21,385 bases of DNA from a virus, in IMG/VR virus record IMGVR_UViG_3300048929_000756, positions 1 through 21,385 of that record; one strand, 5' to 3'. The translations under genes and the position numbers were made by a program. The notes below the pieces were generated by a model. That model was not told the origin of the DNA. It saw only the letters and a program-made list of their open reading frames with translations, and did no database searches. Of the stretch, positions 7,701 through 21,385 are shown piece after piece; the stretch's first letter is position 1; every line of letters begins with the position of its first letter.

Positions 7701-7729
7701 TTATGAAGGTGATTTGCCCGACGGGTCAA
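7701..7729 (-). promoter_or_regulatory. promoter-like box, element copy 1
   Basis: Minus-strand TTGACC (7729-7724), 17-nt spacer, TCATAA (7706-7701). The spacer CGTCGGGCAAATCACCT is nearly identical in the two other copies (8959-8987, 15480-15508). The TGA stop of the upstream gene lies inside the -35 box. Predicted RNA would run straight into the hairpin at 7641-7675. Confidence 0.5.
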
Positions 7730-8385
7730 GCGAGCTGAACGATGCGGCTTGCCAATCGCCTGATATCCGGCGAGGCATCGACCGCCACATCGGGATCAGA
7801 GCTTGCAGCCAGATCAGGAAAAAGCCGGGCCAGATCTTCCGATGATTGCGGCGAGCCCGCACCATATTTCAAAACACCGCCCGAGCTCTGTGCGCCGGGG
7901 AAGGGATTACCAATCTCGTCGGTGGTTGGCCTGAACGATTCAAAAAATTTGAGAACAGGGTTGGCACTGGCCGGGGGAATGTTTTGGTCTCCGGGATTGT
8001 TGCCTGGCGATAAAGCCGGCATTTCGCTTCCCGGAAATGGCTGACCGAATTCGTCTGTTCTCGGCCGAAAATCGAGAACGCTTTTCATCGGAATAGGACC
8101 AAAGCCGTAAGTAGCACCGCCTCCCGGCGTCCCAAATCCAAACCCCGTGGCACCCCCACTCGTTCCGACATTGGGCCCGACTTTTTTTAGCGGACCGAGC
8201 GTGCCGCCAACGGACAGGCCGGTGAGCAGGCCCTCGAGATCGTTGGAGTAGCCGCCGGAGACGCCCAGCCTGGACGAACCAACGTAAGCTTGAGGATAAA
8301 GATTTCCATCGCTATCGACGTACAATCCGCCTCCAAAACCATACGGACTCCCGTAGGTGAATCCGCCGTAGGATCCCTGCTTCAT
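7726..8385 (-). CDS. Gly-rich protein with duplicated FRPxTDExG motif
   Basis: This 219-aa protein starts with a Tyr/Gly-rich domain (FGGGLYVDSDGNLYPQAYVG, then GVSGGYSNDLEGLLTG), continues with a Gly-rich linker, then two copies of one motif: FRPRTDEFGQPFPG (106-119) and FRPTTDEIGNPFPG (151-164). The C-terminus ends in a short helix-like stretch (SPDIRRLASRIVQLA). I do not recognise a family. GGAGA lies 5 nt before the ATG, and the ATG overlaps the membrane-protein stop as ATGA, so the two are coupled. Placement between portal and capsid allows a virion-internal or accessory role; neither is shown. Confidence 0.75.
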   Translation of the reverse strand: MKQGSYGGFTYGSPYGFGGGLYVDSDGNLYPQAYVGSSRLGVSGGYSNDLEGLLTGLSVGGTLGPLKKVGPNVGTSGGATGFGFGTPGGGATYGFGPIPMKSVLDFRPRTDEFGQPFPGSEMPALSPGNNPGDQNIPPASANPVLKFFESFRPTTDEIGNPFPGAQSSGGVLKYGAGSPQSSEDLARLFPDLAASSDPDVAVDASPDIRRLASRIVQLA

Positions 8386-8762
8386 GATTTCTCCGTGTTA
8401 TCCGGCACCGCCCGACGGCTGCAATTTTCCTGGTAAATGACCCAGGACCTGAGCGTGAGAAGCAAATGGATTAGAGACCCACCCAAAACAAGCCAGCCGC
8501 CAAAAACTTCTCCTGCCGAAAAAAGCGACAGCGAGAAACAAAGCCCCGCGATAGTGAATGCCCAGAGAGCGTTCATAAAGTTTTTTTGGATCGGCAAGGG
8601 CGTCAAAGGACTCAGTCCCAGTCCGCCGAGAACGAATTTTTCGGTGAGGCCCTCTGTCAGCTCCTCCGGAATGAGCTTCTTCAAGGCAGAGTCAGCGATC
8701 TGATATTGACAGATGGCGTAGATAAAGATGGCCACACACGGAAAGGCAAACAGAACGGTCAA
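8382..8762 (-). CDS. three-helix membrane protein
   Basis: This encodes 126 aa from a TTG start at 8762. Membrane segments lie near residues 2-21, 63-83 and 88-108, with a charged loop between the first two (EELTEGLTEKF). The TTG is chosen because AGGAGG (8773-8768) sits 5 nt upstream; the longer frame starts at another TTG (8858) without such a site and adds a 32-residue non-hydrophobic lead. The stop overlaps the next ATG. No family recognised; a moron membrane protein (e.g. exclusion) or lysis accessory are possibilities from the size only. Confidence 0.65.
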   Translation of the reverse strand: MTVLFAFPCVAIFIYAICQYQIADSALKKLIPEELTEGLTEKFVLGGLGLSPLTPLPIQKNFMNALWAFTIAGLCFSLSLFSAGEVFGGWLVLGGSLIHLLLTLRSWVIYQENCSRRAVPDNTEKS

Positions 8763-8901
8763 ACTGGCCTCCTCGGGGCTTTTCGAGCCTGGATGGACCG
8801 CCAGTTTACGCCAAGGTTGTATCTCGGCAACATCGCGGCAGCGGAAATTCGATGTCAACGGAAGCCGCTGGCCTATATCGTGGGACGTCGCAGCGCATAA
8901 A

Positions 8902-10402: not shown

Positions 10403-10666
10403 CTACGGAAACGGTGTGAGAAGCCATGGCATCTTTAGTTCTTCGCCATTCAAAGCAAGTTTGACCCGGCACCCACCCCAAAGCCACACAACATAATATT
10501 TGGGGTTCGTTTCCACTTCCATTAAATCCTCTTTGTCGTAAGAGATTTTCAGAGACAATGAAGACCCCGGCGACAAGACAACCTCTTCAGCCCAAGGCTC
10601 GATGATCACGGTCAACGGCTCAGGGTTTTTATTATGTATGCGATACTCCAGAGCCTTGTCAGTCAT
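10403..10666 (-). CDS. PWAEE-family small protein, full copy
   Basis: This encodes 87 aa: a polar lead (MTDKALEYRIHNKNPEP), then 'VIIEPWAEEVVLSPGSSLSL', a charged loop, 'YVVWLWGGCRVKLALNGEEL' and 'PWLLTPFP'. Alternating hydrophobics point to a small beta barrel or sandwich. From memory, small proteins with an EPW[AG]EE signature occur in phage and bacterial genomes, but I know no function. The ATG overlaps the upstream stop as ATGA. A truncated paralogue lies at 9819-10031. Confidence 0.75.
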   Translation of the reverse strand: MTDKALEYRIHNKNPEPLTVIIEPWAEEVVLSPGSSLSLKISYDKEDLMEVETNPKYYVVWLWGGCRVKLALNGEELKMPWLLTPFP

Positions 10667-11436
10667 TCGAAGTTCCTCAAGATGTTTGCCAGCAGAGCTG
10701 CACGATGCGCCGCCGAAAGGTTAGATGGATTATCGCGTGCTACACCTTCATAAATTTTCTGGAATGCAGCAACCGATCGTGAGGTAATCCCGGCATCTTT
10801 GAGTTTGGATATTATGTCAGCGGTCGCTTCGGTGGAAGCCCGGCTCGATGCCGCTAGCCCTTGCGTGAAACCAGCAAGTTCACCAAACCTCTGCCGCGTT
10901 ATTCCCTCTGGCAAGGTACCTTCCGCATCGCTGATGGCCTGCCTAGCGGCACTACTTGCGGCAGCTCTGCCGCCATTCAGGAGCGCTGGGTTGGCGAGCC
11001 CATCAGCAACCGCACCCGCTCCAAACAAGCCGAGCGCCTGACCACCCGCAATTGCGAGCGGCGGCGCCAATGCTGAACCGAGACCGAGCGCTCCCACAAT
11101 CTTTGCCGCTGTGGGATGGTTTTGCACAAGATCTACTACCCCTTCCGATTCTGCGCGTTCAGGAGCGGCGAACTGATTGAAGAAATCGGCGAATGACGAA
11201 GGTGAACCACTTCCGATCGGCTCGACCGGCGGTGTGGGTTGGAGCGGACTTTGTGGCGGTGTTTGTGTTTGTTGGGGCTGCGCCGACAAGCCTTGTATCG
11301 GTGTCGCTTGCGCTTGCCCGTTCTGCGCAGGCGGACCCACGCCGCCCGCGGCAAACGGATCGTGCTCCACCGGCACGAGCGAGACGTTTTCAAAATCCGG
11401 CTGGTGATCCACCGGCACCAGCGAGTAGTCATCCAT
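10663..11436 (-). CDS. Pro/Gln-rich protein with duplicated SLVPV motif
   Basis: This encodes 257 aa. The N-terminus carries an imperfect duplication: YSLVPVDHQPDF (4-15) and VSLVPVEHDPF (18-28). Residues ~30-80 are Pro/Gln-rich and probably disordered, then SSFADFFNQFAA (80-91), a Gly/Ala-rich hydrophobic stretch (110-147) that could insert in a membrane, and a helical C-terminus ending AALLANILRNFE. A membrane-active virion-internal (ejection-type) protein is one reading; I recognise no family. The ATG lies 8 nt inside the portal-C end, so it is coupled to the portal. Confidence 0.75.
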   Translation of the reverse strand: MDDYSLVPVDHQPDFENVSLVPVEHDPFAAGGVGPPAQNGQAQATPIQGLSAQPQQTQTPPQSPLQPTPPVEPIGSGSPSSFADFFNQFAAPERAESEGVVDLVQNHPTAAKIVGALGLGSALAPPLAIAGGQALGLFGAGAVADGLANPALLNGGRAAASSAARQAISDAEGTLPEGITRQRFGELAGFTQGLAASSRASTEATADIISKLKDAGITSRSVAAFQKIYEGVARDNPSNLSAAHRAALLANILRNFE

Positions 11437-13087
11437 GGTGGACGACCAGCAGATACTTGCCGGAACGTGCGGGATCGTCGACGTAGTGGTGGCCGTCCTT
11501 GGCTCTACGTGCGCCGGGCGGATAGGTGCGCCGCGTCTTCTCCTGCGCGACCGCAGCTTTCAGATGCGCGTCGAGCACCGAGAGTTTTGCGTCGAGATCG
11601 GCCTTGATCTTCGCCAACGCGATCTCGCTTTGCGTCTTCACCTGAAGGTGGATTGCCTCGTTCTGCGCCTTTTGTGCCTGAAGCTGCGCCTGATGCGCCG
11701 AGGTGGCGGCATCGATCTGCGCTCTCGCCTGCGCGGCGAGCAGTTTCGGATCGGGCGGTGGTGATGGCGGCGCCGGCGGCGGATGCAGCAGCTGCCCGCT
11801 CTCGGGGTTGATCGCGGAGGGGTCGTTGAAGAACTGGCCCGCGTTCTTGTGGCCCATGATCCGCGTCAGTTCCGAGGCGGTATTGTAGAGCTGGAGATCG
11901 CCGACCAGGTTGGCCTTGCCGGCGGAGAGCAGCTCCTTCTGAACGTTGCCGATCGCCATGGTCTGCGCGAACTGCTGCGCCTTGCCGCCGGTGCCGAGCC
12001 CGACATTGACGGTCATATCGTCGCGCGTCTTCCAGTTGCGCGGATCGACATTGACCCAGGCATTGCGCAATCGCACGGTCTGGATCTGCTGGCCGTGCTT
12101 GCGGATCGTGCCATGCAGCAGCGCAAAGATGTCGCGTACACCCTCCGCCATGATCCGCGCGACCAGCTTGATGCGCATTTGCGAGGCCGAGAACACCTGC
12201 GCCACCGCGGTCGCCGACTGGTTCTGTAGCGCGTTGGCGTCCAACCCTTGCGTTTGCCTGGCAAGGCCAGTGCGGGTCTCGAGCTCAGCGTCGAGATATT
12301 GCAGCATCGGGTAGATCGAAGTCGTGATGTCCGGCACCGCCTGCCAGTTCAGCCCGCCCGGCGTCTTGGTGCGCACCACCCCGCCCGGTCGCGAAACCAG
12401 GAGATCGTCGAGCGTGTTGGGACCGGCATTGCTTTCGGCGACCTCGACGCGCGGATTGTTGTGCAAGTAAAGATTATCCAGCGCGCCGCGCTTGAGCGCG
12501 GTCTTTTCCCGCTGGAGCGGCATCACGAGATCAGCGATCGATCGGCCGAAGAAGCGATGCGTCACCGGCACCGGCGTCGTCGCCGCGAACGGGATCACGT
12601 CGAACGGCGTGATGCAAACCTCGCCATTCTGGCGCAGGATCTCGCCCTCGTCGCCGCCGGTGATGACCTGATAGAGGCTGGCGCGGCCATTGCCTTCGTA
12701 ATCCATCCGCACATAGTGCTCGGTGATGCGCACCAGCCGCGCGGCCTTGTTGACGTCGCCGCCGCCGGTACCGAAATGCTCTTCCACCGTATCGCGCGCC
12801 AGCGTCTCGATTTCGGAAGTGCCGGTGTAATCACCGAGCGAGCGAATCTGCTCGGCGTCGAAGCCTTCGTTGATCAGCTGGCTTTCGGTCTTGGTGACCA
12901 CTTCATGAAAACAGTAATTGCAATCGCGGATCGAACGCGCGCCGCGCTCGATGCCGAACTCTTCCGGCGGCACACCGAGCACGCGGGCCTGCGCGAGCTT
13001 CCGGGTGGTGACGATGGTGACGTCATGCGTCACGGTGGGCGCGGGAAGTTCTGACTGCGGGGGTGGCGCAAGCAAGGGAGTAGCCAT
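11429..13087 (-). CDS. portal protein, C-terminal half (P22-type)
   Basis: This encodes 552 aa, starting just before the core block 'THDVTIVTTRKLAQARVLGV', 'PPEEFGIERGARSIRD' and continuing with 'MDYEGNGRASLYQVI', 'HRFFGRSIADLVMPLQREKT' and 'NPRVEV', all typical of P22-type portals. A Pro-rich linker (HPPPAPPSPPPDP) leads to a Gln/Ala-rich helix that may be the barrel-like end, then DGHHYVDDPARSGKYL. Together with the 191-aa half upstream it totals 743 aa, close to P22 portal (725 aa), so neither half is complete alone. AGGAGG (13109-13104) lies 16 nt before ATG 13087; an in-frame CTG at 13096 would be better spaced. In the assembled portal this ring threads DNA. Confidence 0.85.
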   Translation of the reverse strand: MATPLLAPPPQSELPAPTVTHDVTIVTTRKLAQARVLGVPPEEFGIERGARSIRDCNYCFHEVVTKTESQLINEGFDAEQIRSLGDYTGTSEIETLARDTVEEHFGTGGGDVNKAARLVRITEHYVRMDYEGNGRASLYQVITGGDEGEILRQNGEVCITPFDVIPFAATTPVPVTHRFFGRSIADLVMPLQREKTALKRGALDNLYLHNNPRVEVAESNAGPNTLDDLLVSRPGGVVRTKTPGGLNWQAVPDITTSIYPMLQYLDAELETRTGLARQTQGLDANALQNQSATAVAQVFSASQMRIKLVARIMAEGVRDIFALLHGTIRKHGQQIQTVRLRNAWVNVDPRNWKTRDDMTVNVGLGTGGKAQQFAQTMAIGNVQKELLSAGKANLVGDLQLYNTASELTRIMGHKNAGQFFNDPSAINPESGQLLHPPPAPPSPPPDPKLLAAQARAQIDAATSAHQAQLQAQKAQNEAIHLQVKTQSEIALAKIKADLDAKLSVLDAHLKAAVAQEKTRRTYPPGARRAKDGHHYVDDPARSGKYLLVVHHG

Positions 13088-13128
13088 GATGTTCAGCTCA
13101 ATGCCTCCTGGACATGACGAGAGATCGC

Positions 13129-13145
13129 GCTCGCGCTTGGCGCGA
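13129..13145. other. perfect 7-bp hairpin before portal-C
   Basis: CTCGCGC TTG GCGCGAG folds with a 3-nt loop between the gene ending at 13214 and the portal-C start. It lacks a T tract on either strand, so a terminator call is not supported; an mRNA stabilising or processing role is possible. Confidence 0.4.
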
Positions 13146-13213
13146 GACGCCGTGATGGATCAGGGGTTGTCGTGGGATTTGTCGGGCGGCGGGGTTGCGC
13201 GCCCGTTAGCCGC

Positions 13214-14041
13214 TCAGCTGGCGTTGAGACGCCGCAGATATTCGAGATAGGCACCGTTGAGCGACAGCGATCCGTCGGGTGATGGTTGTAACGGCAGCGT
13301 CGTGAACGGCGAGCCTTGCGATGGGTCGTAGGTTCGCCGAGCTAGAAATCGCGTCGGCCCGTTGTCCGCAACATTCGATGCTTGATCCGGTTGCAGCGGC
13401 GGCGAAGTCATATCAGCGGCAAGCGGAGAGTTCGGGCCTGCGCTCAGCAATCGAGAGAAGAGAGACGCCGGCGCATTCGCATCAAGAGACGTAAAGGCTG
13501 ACACTGACGGCGATGCCGCTTGCGTCAGGATCGGTGCAGCGCCAACTGGGGGCTCGGAGCGTCGCGGATTTTGCGACGGGCTGGGAGACGGCGAAAGATC
13601 CAAGCCCGGGGTTTCTGGAGGGTTCGGCGCTTGCAACGTGATCGGACGTTCGTGAACGGCATTTGGGTCCGACGGCTCCCGAATAATTCTATCTCTATCA
13701 GTTGGATCCCTATCGCCCGCAACCTGATTGAGTTGATCGATAGTATCATCGACCAACCGGACGACGGAATCCAGGATATGACTGGGATCGTCCGCATATT
13801 GCTTTGAAGTGAGAACGGAAGCCTTGAAGTTCTTTAGATCCCGAACCGTACTGTCATATTCGGGTGCGTTGACCGGCGGCTTTCGCGGCCCATCCGGAGT
13901 GAACGATCCCGGTCCATTCAAATAAAAATCGATAACGTCATTTGCTTGAGCCATAAGTTCGGCTCTATCGGCTTCCGTTATCTTTGCGAGCTGCCCCACG
14001 AAACCTGGCGGCGGCAAGGGACTGCTTTCGATAGTTGCCAT
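13214..14041 (-). CDS. largely disordered Pro-rich protein inside portal gap
   Basis: This encodes 275 aa. Residues ~15-115 look helical (ADRAELMAQANDVIDFYL, then VRLVDDTIDQLNQVAG), followed by a long Pro/Ser/Asp-rich disordered part and a short C-terminal helix (LNGAYLEYLRRLNAS). Near the end it carries PTRFLARR, which resembles PPVRVLSRR in the M23 protein and PPIRRLA in the gene at 18229-18796, followed in all three by a Pro-rich stretch and a terminal helix. I recognise no family. It separates the portal halves. The ATG at 14041 has only a weak purine run (GGGGG) upstream. Confidence 0.7.
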   Translation of the reverse strand: MATIESSPLPPPGFVGQLAKITEADRAELMAQANDVIDFYLNGPGSFTPDGPRKPPVNAPEYDSTVRDLKNFKASVLTSKQYADDPSHILDSVVRLVDDTIDQLNQVAGDRDPTDRDRIIREPSDPNAVHERPITLQAPNPPETPGLDLSPSPSPSQNPRRSEPPVGAAPILTQAASPSVSAFTSLDANAPASLFSRLLSAGPNSPLAADMTSPPLQPDQASNVADNGPTRFLARRTYDPSQGSPFTTLPLQPSPDGSLSLNGAYLEYLRRLNAS

Positions 14042-14190
14042 GTTAGGCCCCCAATCGATCTACGTTACCAACTTGAGCGGCGGGACTATTGGACAAATAC
14101 GATTGCGATAGGAGGCGTCGCCAAGGGCAACGCCGCCGGCAGTAGGCCTTGATAGAAGCCGTACGAGCAATGGCTTTTGCTTTATCGTCG

Positions 14191-14643
14191 TTATAGCGGC
14201 TGCCCCAAGCCTCTCCTATCGTCCCGCCAATCCGGTGACAGGAGACGGAACTTCAGAAAGAGCGAGCCTATGCGCACGTTTTCAACAGTCATCCCGTCCC
14301 TGACTTTTTCGCCTTTAAATATGGGCTCTTGATGCAATGCTTCGCGTAGATCGAGGACTGTCACGTCGCGACCATACTCGAAGTAGCAGCAGTCGGGGTT
14401 GTGGCTACGCAGGTGCAACCTGACAATCCGGGACATCGCGCGGCGCAAATCAATATCGACTTGCAGCCCCAGCTCTTTCAGTTCTACGTGACACATCTGA
14501 TCGAACTGACAAATCGACAAGCTTGCGTCTTGGCCTGACTGGGTATCGGCACCGATTTGGACGACGTAATCAGCTGCACGCGCAACGCGGCCCGATAGAA
14601 GTAGGCCCACGACGGCGAGTACGGTGGTGAATTGAGTCTTCAT
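14191..14643 (-). CDS. exported Cys-containing protein inside portal gap
   Basis: This encodes 150 aa. MKTQFTTVLAVVGLLLSGRV then ARA-AD is a clear Sec signal peptide with cleavage after residue 23. The mature part has C45, C51 and a C85-C86 pair, plus beta/alpha segments with 'MSRIVRLHLRSHNPDCCYF'. I know no family. ATG 14643 is preferred over the longer frame because the signal peptide starts there, with GGGA about 7 nt upstream. A promoter-like sequence lies ~90 nt upstream, so it looks like a self-contained moron gene. Periplasmic location is inferred. Confidence 0.7.
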   Translation of the reverse strand: MKTQFTTVLAVVGLLLSGRVARAADYVVQIGADTQSGQDASLSICQFDQMCHVELKELGLQVDIDLRRAMSRIVRLHLRSHNPDCCYFEYGRDVTVLDLREALHQEPIFKGEKVRDGMTVENVRIGSLFLKFRLLSPDWRDDRRGLGQPL

Positions 14644-14728
14644 GCAAATTCCCATCACTCCAAGCTCATGGTTTCGCCGGCGGACACGACCCTGCGCGAC
14701 TGACCATGCAACCTCAGGGCGCCTGTCG

Positions 14729-14758
14729 ATGATAGAACATAACAGGAACGACAATCAA
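14729..14758 (-). promoter_or_regulatory. putative promoter of exported-protein gene
   Basis: Minus-strand TTGATT (14758-14753), 18-nt spacer, TATCAT (14734-14729). The DNA here is AT-richer than its surroundings and lies between the portal-N stop and the start at 14643. It would give independent expression of the inserted genes. Confidence 0.4.
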
Positions 14759-14812
14759 CACTGTTTTCGATCATCCCCCGCTAAGCGGCTTCCAGACACG
14801 ATAGAGCGCGCC

Positions 14813-15388
14813 TCAACTCGTCGCCTCGGTTTGCTCCGGCGCCTCGCCGATCTCATGCACAGTGTGCGCTACGATCTTTATCGCACCTTCGGATTCCGCG
14901 ACGGCCTGCGCGATCAGCGCGAACTGGTCGTCGGTGAGATCGTAATAGGTCTCGCGCTCTTCCTCCTCGCGCTCTTCCCACCACACTTTCACGATGCCGA
15001 CCTTGGAGAGCAGCGCGTCCTTGATGAAGGAATAGAGGATCATGAAGCCGCCGTTCTGCTGCATGAAGACATGATTGACGTAATCGGTTTCCTGCGCCGC
15101 AGCCGCTTCATCCTCCGGGCCGACCGGTTCGAAACGGACGACTTCGTCCGATCCCGCAAACACGTCCATCAGATGCGGCATCAAGCCTTCGATGGTGTCG
15201 GCGACATCGGTCGAGACCGCGCGCGAGCGGCCGTCCTGCGCCGGCATGTCCTTCTGCATGTGACCGAAATAGTAATCCATCGCGTCAGCCCGTTCTTCCG
15301 CAAGCTCGGCTGCGGAAACAGCGGCAAGCGCGTCGGATTTCTCGGCAGACAGCATTGCCTTGAGGTCGGTAGTGGACATTTTCGGCAT
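14813..15388 (-). CDS. portal protein, N-terminal half (P22-type)
   Basis: This encodes 191 aa. 'RADAMDYYFGHMQKDMPAQD' (read as DAMDYYFGHMQKDMP), 'GRSRAVSTDVADTIEGLMPHL', 'DVFAGSDEVVRFEPVGPEDE' and 'DYVNHVFMQQNGGFMILYSFIKDALL' blocks are the N-terminal half of P22-type portals, ending soon after 'VKVWWEE'. The stop comes in the acidic variable linker (GEAPEQTEATS), after which an intact portal would continue into the block that starts the gene at 13087. GAGAAG (15401-15396) lies 7 nt before ATG 15388; ATG 15379 is a second option. No frameshift or internal stop. It must partner the other half to be functional. Confidence 0.85.
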   Translation of the reverse strand: MPKMSTTDLKAMLSAEKSDALAAVSAAELAEERADAMDYYFGHMQKDMPAQDGRSRAVSTDVADTIEGLMPHLMDVFAGSDEVVRFEPVGPEDEAAAAQETDYVNHVFMQQNGGFMILYSFIKDALLSKVGIVKVWWEEREEEERETYYDLTDDQFALIAQAVAESEGAIKIVAHTVHEIGEAPEQTEATS

Positions 15389-15422
15389 GAAGGATCTTCT
15401 CATCTGAAGGGATGATCGAACG

Positions 15423-15458
15423 AAAAAAGCCCGCGTGGCTTTTCGGCCTGCGGGCTTT
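15423..15458 (-). terminator. terminator-like hairpin, element copy 3
   Basis: Minus-strand stem AAAGCCCGC/GCGGGCTTT (15450-15458 with 15426-15434) is followed by TTTTTT. It is a well-formed intrinsic-terminator shape between the small membrane gene (stop 15561) and portal-N (start 15388). Confidence 0.75.
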
Positions 15459-15479
15459 CGGATTTTGGCAAGGATGGAC

Positions 15480-15508
15480 TTATGGCGGTGATTTGCCCGA
15501 CGTGTCAA
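15480..15508 (-). promoter_or_regulatory. promoter-like box, element copy 3
   Basis: Minus-strand TTGACA (15508-15503), 17-nt spacer CGTCGGGCAAATCACCG, CCATAA (15485-15480). It has the same geometry as copies 1 and 2 and leads into the hairpin at 15423-15458, then portal-N. Confidence 0.55.
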
Positions 15509-15560
15509 ATCGACATTGGAGAACGATCGGAACGGGATTGAACAACTTCAGATTGCCGCA

Positions 15561-15728
15561 CTAAGATAATAACCGGTGGACCGCAAGCCACGCCAGAAGA
15601 GCGAGGCCAAAAGTCGCCACGATCGTGCCGGCCTGCGCGACGCGCGGCGTCGGGACCAGATTGACGGAGAGGATACCGCAGGCCAAGGCAACGAGACCGG
15701 CGGCGGCGAAGGTGCGATCGAGGTCCAT
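15561..15728 (-). CDS. 55-aa two-helix membrane protein
   Basis: MDLDRTFAAAGLVALACGIL opens the first helix, VPTPRV forms the turn, and TIVATFGLALLAWLAVHRLL is the second helix. Start chosen at 15728 because AGGAG (15738-15734) lies 5 nt upstream; the longer frame from 15764 would overlap the divergent DUF2235 start. The gap to that start is 34 nt. Function unknown; holin-like, accessory or immunity roles are all possible for so small a membrane protein. Confidence 0.65.
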   Translation of the reverse strand: MDLDRTFAAAGLVALACGILSVNLVPTPRVAQAGTIVATFGLALLAWLAVHRLLS

Positions 15729-15762
15729 CGGATCTCCTGATGGGTTGAAGGCGGGGGAAAGC

Positions 15763-16944
15763 ATGGCGGACGTATCAGTGGCAGCGTCGAAGAAGCGCCT
15801 GGCGCTCTATCTCGACGGCACCTGGAATCAGGTCAGCGACAACACCAATGTCTGGCGTTTCCGCGCGCTGTTCTCGCCCTCAAGCGCCGACGGCTGCGAG
15901 CAGCGCGCCTATTATTCGACCGGGCTTGGCACCAAGTTCGGCGAGAAGATCAGCGGCGGGCTGTTCGGCGCCGGCATCGATACGGCGATCACCAGCGCCT
16001 ATGAATGGTTGATCGACAATTACGCGCCGGGCGACGAGATCTTCATCTTCGGGTTCAGCCGCGGCGCCTATACCGCACGAAGCCTCTCCGGCTTCATCTC
16101 GAAATGCGGGCTCTTGCAAAGCGGCGCGCCGCTCGGCGTCAATCAGCTGTTCACGCGTTACCGGCAGGCAGGCCTGCGGACCATCCGCGAATTGATGGCG
16201 GCGCAAGCGGACGGGCAGACCGCCGATTTCAGCTTCGAGGAAAAATGGATGCTGGAATACGCGCTGGCCGTGCCGGTCAAATTCATCGGCGTGTTCGACA
16301 CCGTGGGCGAGCTCGGCGTGCCCTTCCCCTGGTGGCGGGAGTTGTTCGGGTCGGCCTATCAATTCCTCAACACCGGCCTGCGCCAGAACAACGAGTTCGC
16401 CTTTCACGCGATGGCGATCGACGAGCATCGCAAGGCGTTCGCGCCGACGCTGTGGAGCAACCAGGGCGCGACGAACGCCGCCCATCGGCCGATCGAGCGC
16501 ACCGAACAGCGATGGTTCATCGGCGCGCACGCCAATGTCGGCGGCGGATATTTCAACGACGCCCTGCCCCAGCTTCCGTTCAAGTGGCTGGAGCGCAAGG
16601 CGGCCAGCCTCGGGCTGTCGTTTCGCGGCGACTTCGACGTCGATCCCGCCGCAAGTACGGCTGCGGTCGCTGATTCCTACACGACGTTCATGTACGGGTT
16701 CTATCGGCTCTACACGCTCAATCGCCCTTATTATCGGCCGATCGGCGTTCTTCCCAAAAGCGAAGGCGACGGCGTCATCAATATCAACGAGACGATCGAT
16801 GCGTCGGTGTTCGAGCGCTGGCGCAGCGACCGCAGCTACCGGCCGCCGGGACTGCAAAACTGGGCAACGGCAAGATCCGTCGACCCCGCAAAGATCATCG
16901 CCTCCGTGCGCGCCGATGATCCGGCCGTGGTGGTCGCGGATTAG
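15763..16944 (+). CDS. DUF2235 alpha/beta-hydrolase-like protein
   Basis: This 393-aa protein has the DUF2235 layout: 'LALYLDGTWNQVSDNTNV' at the start, the nucleophile elbow GFSRGAYTARSLSGF (Ser99), 'FIGVFDTVGELGVP' with the acid residue, 'EHRKAFAPTLW' and 'RWFIGAHANVGGGYF' with the His. All triad-like residues are present. Relatives include Tle1-type phospholipase effectors and many proteins of unknown substrate. GGGGGA lies ~5 nt before ATG 15763; the frame opens further upstream but without such a site. It is the only large plus-strand gene here, against the phage operon, which marks it as cargo. No signal peptide or membrane segment seen. Confidence 0.88.
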   Translation: MADVSVAASKKRLALYLDGTWNQVSDNTNVWRFRALFSPSSADGCEQRAYYSTGLGTKFGEKISGGLFGAGIDTAITSAYEWLIDNYAPGDEIFIFGFSRGAYTARSLSGFISKCGLLQSGAPLGVNQLFTRYRQAGLRTIRELMAAQADGQTADFSFEEKWMLEYALAVPVKFIGVFDTVGELGVPFPWWRELFGSAYQFLNTGLRQNNEFAFHAMAIDEHRKAFAPTLWSNQGATNAAHRPIERTEQRWFIGAHANVGGGYFNDALPQLPFKWLERKAASLGLSFRGDFDVDPAASTAAVADSYTTFMYGFYRLYTLNRPYYRPIGVLPKSEGDGVININETIDASVFERWRSDRSYRPPGLQNWATARSVDPAKIIASVRADDPAVVVAD

Positions 16945-16977: not shown

Positions 16978-17778
16978 TTAAGGAGAATGATTTCCCTTTT
17001 GCGGCCTGGTCGTGCCCGGCGGCGCGTTGCCGACGATGGCGCGCAATTCGACCAGCGCCCGCTCGAGCGCCTCGGCGCCCTTGTCGCTGGCTTTGATTTC
17101 GGGGCTGGGGTCGAACAGGATGTTGGCGATGTTCTTGGCGTCGATGAACAGATAGTCCCAATAAGCTCTCGTGTCCTGGTCAGCCCCGAACAACTTTTGC
17201 AGGTTCGTCGGCATCGGATCGTCGCCTTCCATTTTCATGAAAAAGCGCGAGCAATTCCTCAGGACGACGTAAGTCAGGCTTCCGTCGAGCGTCATGTAGA
17301 ATTCGGAGAGCGCGCCCTTGTACATCAGCACGCGGTCGTTCTCGACGGTGGTGGTCATGACAAAGGCGGTGACGATGCCATCGCGCATCGACTGATTGAC
17401 GGCCGTGATCCACTTGTGCCGGGACAGGCTGCGGAAATGCGAAGCCACGTAACCGCAAGCAAAGCCGAAAATGGCGATCACCACGGTATAGATGCCGCTG
17501 TTGACGACGATCGTGACGCCGGGTTTCAGCGTGGTCCATTTGTCGTAGGTCGAAAGCGGCCGCAGGAAATCGGCGAGGTCAAATCCGAAAAAGACCAGAA
17601 CGCCGTAGGCCAGGAGATGCAAAATCAGCGCGACGAGGATCGCCAGCCCGACCTCGCCGATCGCATTGCTGCGGATGACCTCGCGCGAAAATCTTTCGGT
17701 AAAGTACAGGCCGACGAAAAAGAAGACGCCTGGAAACAGCAGCGCTGTGATCAGTACGGTGGTCCACGCGATTGACAT
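16978..17778 (-). CDS. three-helix membrane protein (DUF6338-like?)
   Basis: This encodes 266 aa. Membrane segments lie near residues 6-25, 43-65 and 88-112, followed by a ~150-residue soluble domain ('NQSMRDGIVTAFVMTTTVEN', 'VLMYKGALSEFYMTLDGSLTYVVL', 'YLFIDAKNIANILFD') likely in the cytoplasm. The 'LLFPGVFFF' opening and overall build recall DUF6338 membrane proteins, a tentative call made from memory. It is convergent with the DUF2235 gene, and 22 nt after the 59-aa gene, without an obvious ribosome site, so it may be coupled to that gene. Cargo (moron) status is inferred. Confidence 0.7.
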   Translation of the reverse strand: MSIAWTTVLITALLFPGVFFFVGLYFTERFSREVIRSNAIGEVGLAILVALILHLLAYGVLVFFGFDLADFLRPLSTYDKWTTLKPGVTIVVNSGIYTVVIAIFGFACGYVASHFRSLSRHKWITAVNQSMRDGIVTAFVMTTTVENDRVLMYKGALSEFYMTLDGSLTYVVLRNCSRFFMKMEGDDPMPTNLQKLFGADQDTRAYWDYLFIDAKNIANILFDPSPEIKASDKGAEALERALVELRAIVGNAPPGTTRPQKGNHSP

Positions 17779-18228: not shown

Positions 18229-18796
18229 CTAAAGATCAAGTGCGGCCTTCCAGCGCCGGACGAGCTCATTATCTTCATCCTCGGCAGGCGACGGATCGGG
18301 GGTCTCGAAGATCGAAGGCCGCACCGGATAATCCCGAATCGGCTTGCCCGAGAAGATGCCGAGCAACGGCGGCGGGGCTGACGCGCCGGTCGGTGCGGGT
18401 GACGATAGGTTGGCAAGCCGACGAATCGGCGGGACGTCATCATTCGTCGTCGCCGGCGTCGCGCCACTCGAAATCTCCGATCGTTGGCCGCTATCCGGCC
18501 CCCAACGGAACGGAGGGAAAATATTGCGAAGGCGGCACGGGCCCGCCATGTGCGGCGTCAGGCGTGTGACTGTCTGAGAATTGCGGGTCGTCGCCATAGA
18601 TCTTGTGCCAGTATTCGGGATCGGCCTGATAGGCTGCCATCGCTTTTTGAAAATCTCCGAGATGAAGATCTCCGTTGATGCGTTGTGCGAAGGCTTCGTC
18701 GTTGTTTATAGTATCCGCTCCAAGGTGGTAATATCCGAGTTGCCTTCCGGTCAGGCCAGCAGCGAGTCTGAGAACAGATTGAGGTAACCACCACAT
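18229..18796 (-). pseudogene. frame-shifted gene with M23-type C-terminal tail
   Basis: Two overlapping frames make one gene. Frame A (18796 to a TAG at 18493) has AGGAG 6 nt before its ATG and encodes 101 aa: MWWLPQSVLRLAAGL, then 'FQKAMAAYQADPEYWHKIYG' and a Pro-rich end. Frame B (open to 18229) carries the tail SGKPIRDYPVRPSIF ... EDNELVRRW, nearly identical to the end of the M23 protein. Joining them needs a +1 shift; CCC followed by T at 18517-18514 is a suitable +1 slip site, and the join would yield 188 aa. It may be programmed frameshifting, a genuine mutation, or a sequencing error. The N-terminal part is not recognised. Confidence 0.6.
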
Positions 18797-20392: not shown

Positions 20393-21385
20393 TCACGCAT
20401 CCACCCACCGCATCCAGCGCTGGAACAGCTCATTGTCGTCGGGCGAGGGTCGATCATCGGCCGTTGCGAAGATCGACGGCCGCACAGGATAGTCCCGCAT
20501 CGGTTTGCCACTGACGATGCCGAGCAAGGGCGGCGCCGCTTCAGGTGCTGGCGTCGGCGCGTCGCCGGCTGCGGGTGAGAGATCTGCGCGGCGCGAGAGA
20601 ACGCGAACCGGCGGATCGTCCGCCTCTGATCGTTTGCCTGGATCTGGCAGCTGTGGAGCCGGAGCACTGATGTTGCCGAGCGCCCCGGGAGCCGTCAGGT
20701 CCCAGCCATTAAATCGATCGGCAAAACTGGCGGGATCGTCGGAAGCAGTCGACCCATTGGGAAGCGGCGCAGAACCCCACTTTCCGAAGCGATCAGCGAA
20801 TGGATTTGGATCGGATACTGATTTACCGAAAGGACTGAAGAAGGGCTGAGCCGGCGTGTCAGGCGAAGAAATGCCGGAAGCCGAAGTGGCAGTGCCACCG
20901 GACATGATTTCTGCGGCGCGCTGTGATTGATCGAGATCGGCCGGCGGAGGCAGAACGTAATTCTGATATGTCGCGGGATCATAAGTATTGGTTTGATCCG
21001 GATGGAGTCCGATTGGACCGCCATCCCTCGGATGTGCAGCGTCGTATACTTTCCCGGCTTCTTTCGTGATTACGGAGTAATGCAGATGGGGACCAGTGGA
21101 CTCGCCGGTATTTCCGACCCGACCGATCATGTCGCCTTTCCAAAGGCGCTGGCCGGGCGTGACCTGATCGTCGCCTCGCATATGCGCGTAAAGACTATGG
21201 TCGCCCGTATCGTTCTTGACGATGACAGTGTTTCCATATCCGCCCTCGTTTTTGCCGGAATACACGACAACACCGGACGCAGCACTCGGGATGGGAGTCC
21301 CTTCGGGCGCGCTAAAATCCAACCCGGGATGAAGCTCGGGCTGATTGGTCTTTGGGTGAATACGCCAGCCGTAGCGCGAGCTCAT
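20393..21385 (-). CDS. M23 metallopeptidase with disordered tail (5' end cut)
   Basis: This encodes at least 330 aa and runs off the right edge; M23 domains usually have residues before SSRYGWRIHP, so the ATG at the edge may be internal. Zinc-site motifs are intact: H19-x3-D23 (LHPGLD), H68 (YAHM) and H100-x-H102 (HLHYSV). After ~130 residues comes a long Pro/Ser/Asp-rich part with a duplicated FADRF motif (NPFADRFGKW, ASFADRFNGW) and then a tail shared with the gene at 18229-18796 (SGKPMRDYPVRPSIF ... DDNELFQRW). It would cleave peptidoglycan cross-links; use during entry (virion lysin) or lysis is not settled. Confidence 0.88.
   Translation of the reverse strand: MSSRYGWRIHPKTNQPELHPGLDFSAPEGTPIPSAASGVVVYSGKNEGGYGNTVIVKNDTGDHSLYAHMRGDDQVTPGQRLWKGDMIGRVGNTGESTGPHLHYSVITKEAGKVYDAAHPRDGGPIGLHPDQTNTYDPATYQNYVLPPPADLDQSQRAAEIMSGGTATSASGISSPDTPAQPFFSPFGKSVSDPNPFADRFGKWGSAPLPNGSTASDDPASFADRFNGWDLTAPGALGNISAPAPQLPDPGKRSEADDPPVRVLSRRADLSPAAGDAPTPAPEAAPPLLGIVSGKPMRDYPVRPSIFATADDRPSPDDNELFQRWMRWVDA

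Follow-up and report, generated by a model that had tools for sequence, protein, structure and literature searches.

Portals are rings that let DNA into and out of the virus head, and they are generally regarded as 12-mers of single chains, with a wing loop that takes on a different shape in the course of maturation. The SU10/PaP3/Pa223-type portals (PF23899; PDB 7z44, 7sxk, 9nwm) are single-chain. Here we describe a portal with full-length homology to this type, and the same fold in a model of a fused relative, that is encoded by two genes, with the break, according to the model, in the wing hairpin. It was found in a 21,385-nucleotide stretch of viral DNA (IMG/VR record IMGVR_UViG_3300048929_000756; hereafter the window), and a large family of Bradyrhizobium prophages encodes the portal in two separate genes. 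The literature searched, outside which most subscription papers lie, yielded no account of an SU10-type portal made from two genes, which is not proof of absence.

Genes in pieces are known from other phages: nrdA of Aeh1 is split by mobE, T4 topoisomerase genes are split by mobA, and an Aeromonas phage has genes 43A and 43B (PMC2988022). Split Aeh1 nrdA is functional and the products of 43A and 43B co-purify with activity (PMC2988022). The likeness is an essential gene made as two chains. However, those genes encode enzymes and were mostly split by homing endonucleases. Here a structural ring protein is affected, the cargo set yielded no endonuclease domain, the split is recurrent, and exchangeable accessory genes occupy the gap. 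Portal genes of the huge Jug phages have been described as fragmented and/or highly divergent, and group I introns, endonucleases and putative inteins commonly interrupt genes in these phages (PMC12363816); the fragmented portal is shared, but no intron, intein or endonuclease was found here. Outside phages, insertional fission with a multi-ORF (open reading frame) insert is known for wasp mitochondrial cox2 (PMC5374615).

Both halves in the window match the Pfam family SU10_portal (PF23899) above its gathering score (1e-55 for the N half, 2e-125 for the C half), and together they fill the profile except for a gap of four positions (Table 1). PHROG 1216 ('portal protein') also matches each half. 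A preliminary description, made from the sequence alone, had placed portal halves of 191 and 552 aa at the same coordinates; it called the portal P22-type, which by sequence is SU10/PaP3-type instead. As it had proposed, the halves were aligned with an intact relative (L015; loci carry L numbers throughout), and coverage was nearly end to end. Residues 1-185 of the N half align with 1-185 of L015 and residues 9-534 of the C half with 189-712, so that almost nothing was removed by the break. The window thus departs from the single-polypeptide form of the solved SU10-type members, its two frames lying 1.7 kb apart. The portal is accompanied by the remainder of an SU10-type head module, and its neighbours TerL, SU10_MCP and SU10_adaptor are the same as in SU10/PaP3/Pa223-type phages.

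The explanation we favour, with a probability of about 0.78, is a two-polypeptide portal: an ancestral gene was split in a loop of the wing hairpin, the two chains re-pair, and the junction afterwards became an insertion slot. If this is true, fission at one turn of a portal has happened more than once, or has been followed by repeated re-fusion, and the covalent connection there is dispensable. The break would then be a natural split site usable for testing how the portal wing works, and an essential late gene can come to offer accessory genes a safe place for insertion.

Conservation of the two halves and competing explanations

The C half, used as query, detected 34 genome and 80 viral loci, the named ones nearly all from Bradyrhizobium, and a fused Kaistia portal as query added a further 51. 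Removal of duplicates left 131 distinct loci with both portal parts, of which 110 are split at one same place and 21 are fused. The window prophage is therefore not a one-off, and the search for the identical split elsewhere, proposed in the preliminary description, found it in most loci. Among the split loci the halves overlap or are adjacent (≤ 15 nt) in 16, are separated by 16 to 300 nt in 20 and by more than 300 bp in 74, with a largest gap of 5.5 kb.

Strong purifying selection acts on both halves. Pairwise ratios of nonsynonymous to synonymous substitution rates (dN/dS, Nei-Gojobori method, NG86) had medians of 0.12 (N half) and 0.13 (C core); between the window and L036 they were 0.055 and 0.051 for the N and C halves, respectively. 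Selection on both pieces is a mark of functional split genes, and it removes neutral decay as an explanation. The N half remains about 80% identical among relatives, and in the Bradyrhizobium clade both halves are full length in 74 of the 80 split loci that are complete within their contig. The break is natural and old.

This constraint bears on the idea that the C half alone is a working portal and that the N half is now a separate protein with some other role. The C half does carry most of the profile (positions 172-580) and equals T7-type portals in length. However, the N half is similarly conserved and constrained, aligns along its whole length with the N region of the portal, contributes one hairpin strand and several helices in the model of L015 (described below), and has been retained in the re-fusion seen in that locus. 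We consider this idea unlikely.

Slightly less probable still is a recently broken, not yet decayed pseudogene in a defective prophage, which the preliminary description had offered as an alternative. Prophages often degrade, and truncated or broken C halves occur in a few Bradyrhizobium loci (L033, L034, L035 and L024), which are probably dead prophages. Against this stand the identical split in 110 distinct loci, dN/dS of about 0.12 in both halves across deep divergence, the 74 of 80 intact loci, and the presence of the split in an induced, particle-forming phage (PMC10127595).

That phage is ppUSDA76Be-2 (OP596614, L116), a prophage of Bradyrhizobium elkanii USDA 76 with a split portal and no cargo. 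Transmission electron microscopy (TEM) of the USDA 76 culture showed a short-tailed phage (podophage), and the ppUSDA76Be-2 genome was strongly enriched among reads of DNase-treated phage concentrates (mBio study, PMC10127595). OP596614 holds a single portal place, where the halves (14438-14992 and 14992-16653) overlap by one base (TGATG). The split explains why the portal was missed in annotation: in GenBank the N half is a hypothetical protein, and the C half is an open frame left unannotated. The preliminary description had raised the possibility that no strain with the split has intact particles; induced ppUSDA76Be-2, a podophage by TEM, carries it. Judged from this genome, having a split portal does not conflict with packaging into particles.

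An intron, an intein, trans-splicing or programmed frameshifting might instead restore a single chain from the pieces, a reading with about the same low probability as a pseudogene. Frameshifting is possible in principle where the halves overlap but cannot bridge kilobase inserts, and there are translation signals on both sides of the break, a stop codon ending N and a separate start for C. Candidate elements at the break were rejected: an Rfam scan of the insert found no group I or II intron, Pfam found no intein domain in the halves or the cargo set, and no HNH, GIY-YIG or LAGLIDADG homing endonuclease domain occurred among 46 cargo proteins. Finally, although the window comes from just one IMG/VR record, it is scarcely conceivable that mis-assembly or a chimera in this one contig produced the insert, as independent genomes and contigs have the same arrangement with different cargo, and the cargo tail is contiguous with the C half in both L006 and L038.

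Position of the break and order of events

An AlphaFold (AF2) model of fused L015 (predicted local distance difference test, pLDDT, 75; moderate confidence) has strands at residues 170-178 and 198-217 and, between them, a low-confidence loop (179-197) within which the break of the split portals falls; the tolerated variable linker of the preliminary description corresponds to this loop. Foldseek and VIA-align matched the model to the portals of Pa223, PaP3 and SU10 (VIA Z about 29 to 31 against SU10/PaP3/Pa223-type portals). By alignment, the break is a few residues ahead of the strand bearing the KKKR motif in PaP3 and Pa223 (PMC13386823). According to the model, the break lies in the turn of a wing-domain β-hairpin. 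With the break in this turn, the chains can plausibly pair through the same hairpin, and they probably do so non-covalently.

In main-clade loci with adjacent halves the junction reads like TCGGAGGCAACGAGC-TGATG-AACATG. The final N codons (SEATS) contain the GGAGG, and the stop of the N half overlaps the start of the C half. Of the 16 adjacent loci, 11 have a Shine-Dalgarno core ahead of the C start, compared with about 10% of internal ATGs, which suggests translational coupling of adjacent or overlapping halves. A ribosome-binding site as a general rule for C starts was rejected, being true of adjacent loci only. Also discarded was a conserved, duplicated junction as a general signature of insertion: a recognisable junction copy before the C half exceeded the 99th percentile of shuffles in only 11 of 65 insert-bearing loci, the window being among the best.

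In the tree of N plus C halves, 88 rows of the Bradyrhizobium clade are split and a single one is fused, namely L015, which is nested deep among split loci (support 100/98* and 99/95* in the careful tree). Since its linker retains the proline-rich leader typical of split C-half starts, L015, which is one metagenome-assembled genome, looks like a re-fusion. Basal members of the clade (L027, L021, L113/L114, L028 and L116) have halves that overlap or are tens of bases apart and carry no cargo, and kilobase inserts are mostly confined to the nested main clade. Portal fission therefore probably preceded cargo insertion. The preliminary description had pictured cargo inserted at a tolerated loop, leaving a two-chain portal. 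The loop, the conservation of both halves and the cargo in the gap agree with this picture, but the 1.7 kb insert is probably not the cause of the split.

In the wider set there are at least six changes between split and fused forms in the careful tree (bootstrap 6-6), of which at least three are forced by well-supported branches, and a single clade of all split rows plus L015 was rejected (approximately unbiased test, p = 0.00056). Such tree-based counts are subject to recombination and long branches, and they fit several splits, or one old split with several re-fusions, equally well, so that we cannot tell these apart. A single-chain portal is taken as ancestral because the distant relatives PaP3, SU10, L154, L158 and L160 are fused.

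The two-chain portal probably arose as follows. In an ancestral portal made from one gene, a stop and a restart would have arisen in the variable loop between two β-hairpin strands of the wing domain. The outcome would be two overlapping genes, probably translationally coupled through TGATG and the Shine-Dalgarno sequence inside the last N codons. Chains of about 190 (N) and 550 (C) aa would re-pair through the hairpin and the remaining interface, giving an assembled portal of 12 subunits and 24 chains. The coding sequence would now be interrupted at a neutral point, making the junction an insertion slot into which accessory cassettes could enter and be exchanged by recombination.

Several observations weigh against this account. 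Two chains in one portal are deduced from genes and a model, not from proteomics or structure, and a few split loci have decayed. The correlation of N and C distances is 0.51 in the insert-bearing main clade, compared with 0.95 in fused and 0.91 in adjacent loci, a weakening that stems from recombination or from the narrow range. In insert-bearing loci Shine-Dalgarno cores are not enriched ahead of the C half (12 of 74), so that they do not account for its initiation there. The particle-linked phage has adjacent halves and no insert, and the case for function in insert-bearing loci rests on selection. The least supported parts are the C-half start in insert-bearing loci and a direct functional tie between cargo and portal.

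Cargo genes in the gap

Compared with L040, in which the halves are adjacent, homology of the window ends at the N stop codon and restarts 21 nt before the C start. The insert carries an exported and a disordered protein (cargo 1 and cargo 2; Table 1), as in the preliminary description; the promoter-like site reported there is at chance level in the insert (1 found, 1.1 expected). Relatives of cargo 1 occur in L006, L038, L046 and L055. Its model has a confident β-rich core, with no convincing match in PDB for the fold, and by position it is immunity-like. Cargo 2 appears effector-like from its architecture. Its tail is common to the window, L006 and L038, and in the latter two the tail block and the C half form one conserved, continuous DNA block, for which reason the cargo tail and the N half may serve as anchors for cassette exchange.

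Across 79 loci the ORFs in the insert fall into 141 families. The commonest (fam 0) is present in 50 loci, with all 72 members on the portal strand, and joins differing heads, such as an M23 peptidase, to one tail. An M23 domain occurs in three cargo proteins. Effector-like constant-tail proteins were found in 51 loci, 41 of which also have an ORF with a signal peptide or transmembrane segment in the gap (by a crude hydrophobicity test), often in tandem arrays; one such protein adjoins an Ivy lysozyme inhibitor. Cargo tails are slot-specific, the main tail (tail0) having 46 of its 50 hits in the N|C gap and the M23-type tail 10 of 11 before the N half. GC content at third codon positions was 0.56 to 0.63 for cargo, 0.76 to 0.81 for portal halves and 0.87 for the capsid gene. 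The TerL-N and C-MCP gaps are likewise inflated in the main clade, which makes the portal junction one slot among several. In L009, L010 and L075 a decayed C-half start, and in L038 a decayed N-half end, is found within the insert ahead of the C half, as expected of repeated recombination at the junction.

From its gene content, the N|C gap is a slot for exchangeable, antibacterial-looking genes. Most cassettes, that of the window among them, combine an exported or membrane protein with a variable-head, constant-tail protein, and as putative pairs of immunity protein and peptidoglycan-attacking effector they resemble effector-immunity cassettes. Polymorphic toxin cassettes (PMC3482391) and X-T4SS effectors with C-terminal recognition domains (PMC11253643) likewise have variable domains on a constant part (here the fam 0 heads on one tail), with an adjacent exported or membrane partner, cassettes in tandem and orphan tails. 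Unlike those systems, the cargo sits inside a phage head operon, and its constant part is a C-terminal tail. Comparison of cargo with a defence-system database gave no meaningful match. It is improbable, though somewhat less so than the competing explanations above, that fission is maintained because the junction is a dedicated exchange slot for effector-immunity cassettes, bound to the portal gene by their constant, slot-specific C-terminal tails, and that these tails may load effectors onto the virion at the portal vertex, with particles delivering antibacterial proteins.

Table 1. Coordinates of portal, cargo and neighbouring features in the window
Feature	Positions	Strand	Remarks
Portal N half	14813..15388	-	191 aa, ATG at 15388; SU10_portal profile 2-167
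Portal C half	11429..13087	-	552 aa; SU10_portal profile 172-580
Insert, ~1.7 kb	13109..14812	-	N stop to 21 nt before C start, relative to adjacent-half relatives
Cargo 1, small exported protein	14191..14643	-	150 aa, signal peptide, predicted all-β, conserved Cys
Cargo 2	13214..14041	-	275 aa; variable head, disordered middle, conserved C-terminal tail
Conserved tail-coding block of cargo 2	13217..13405	-	Contiguous with C half in L006, L038
Residual stop/RBS (ribosome-binding site)/start junction copy before C half	13083..13108	-	21/26 matches to adjacent-half junction
Terminase large subunit (TerL)	20365-19079	-	Head-module neighbour
SU10_MCP	7343-6381	-	Head-module neighbour
SU10_adaptor	5284-4631	-	Head-module neighbour
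Tle1-like phospholipase domain gene	15763-16944	+	PF09994, 5e-70
Membrane protein	16978-17778	-	Adjoins Tle1-like gene
M23 peptidase gene	20393-21385	-	Disordered constant tail
Orphan copy of M23 gene's tail	18229-18597	-	Separate, closer to portal
Effector-like tail protein and membrane protein	7726-8385 and 8382-8858	-	Between portal and capsid gene
Copy of portal C-half 3' end	10029-10361		Copies 11434-11768, 84% over 336 bp
Paralogue of small gene 10403-10666			After the portal 3' copy

Other genes of similar appearance lie elsewhere in the window. The Tle1-like gene is between terminase and portal on the strand opposite to them and, with its membrane neighbour, looks like another pair of effector and partner. 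The M23 peptidase gene has a separate orphan tail, as in polymorphic toxin systems, and the membrane protein of the pair located between portal and capsid gene resembles fam 2, one of the common families of cargo partners.

About 1.4 kb downstream of the portal C half lies a second copy of its 3' end, and behind this copy is a paralogue of a small gene. Partial portal 3' copies are also present behind the portal in many relatives, and they mark a second recombination hotspot.
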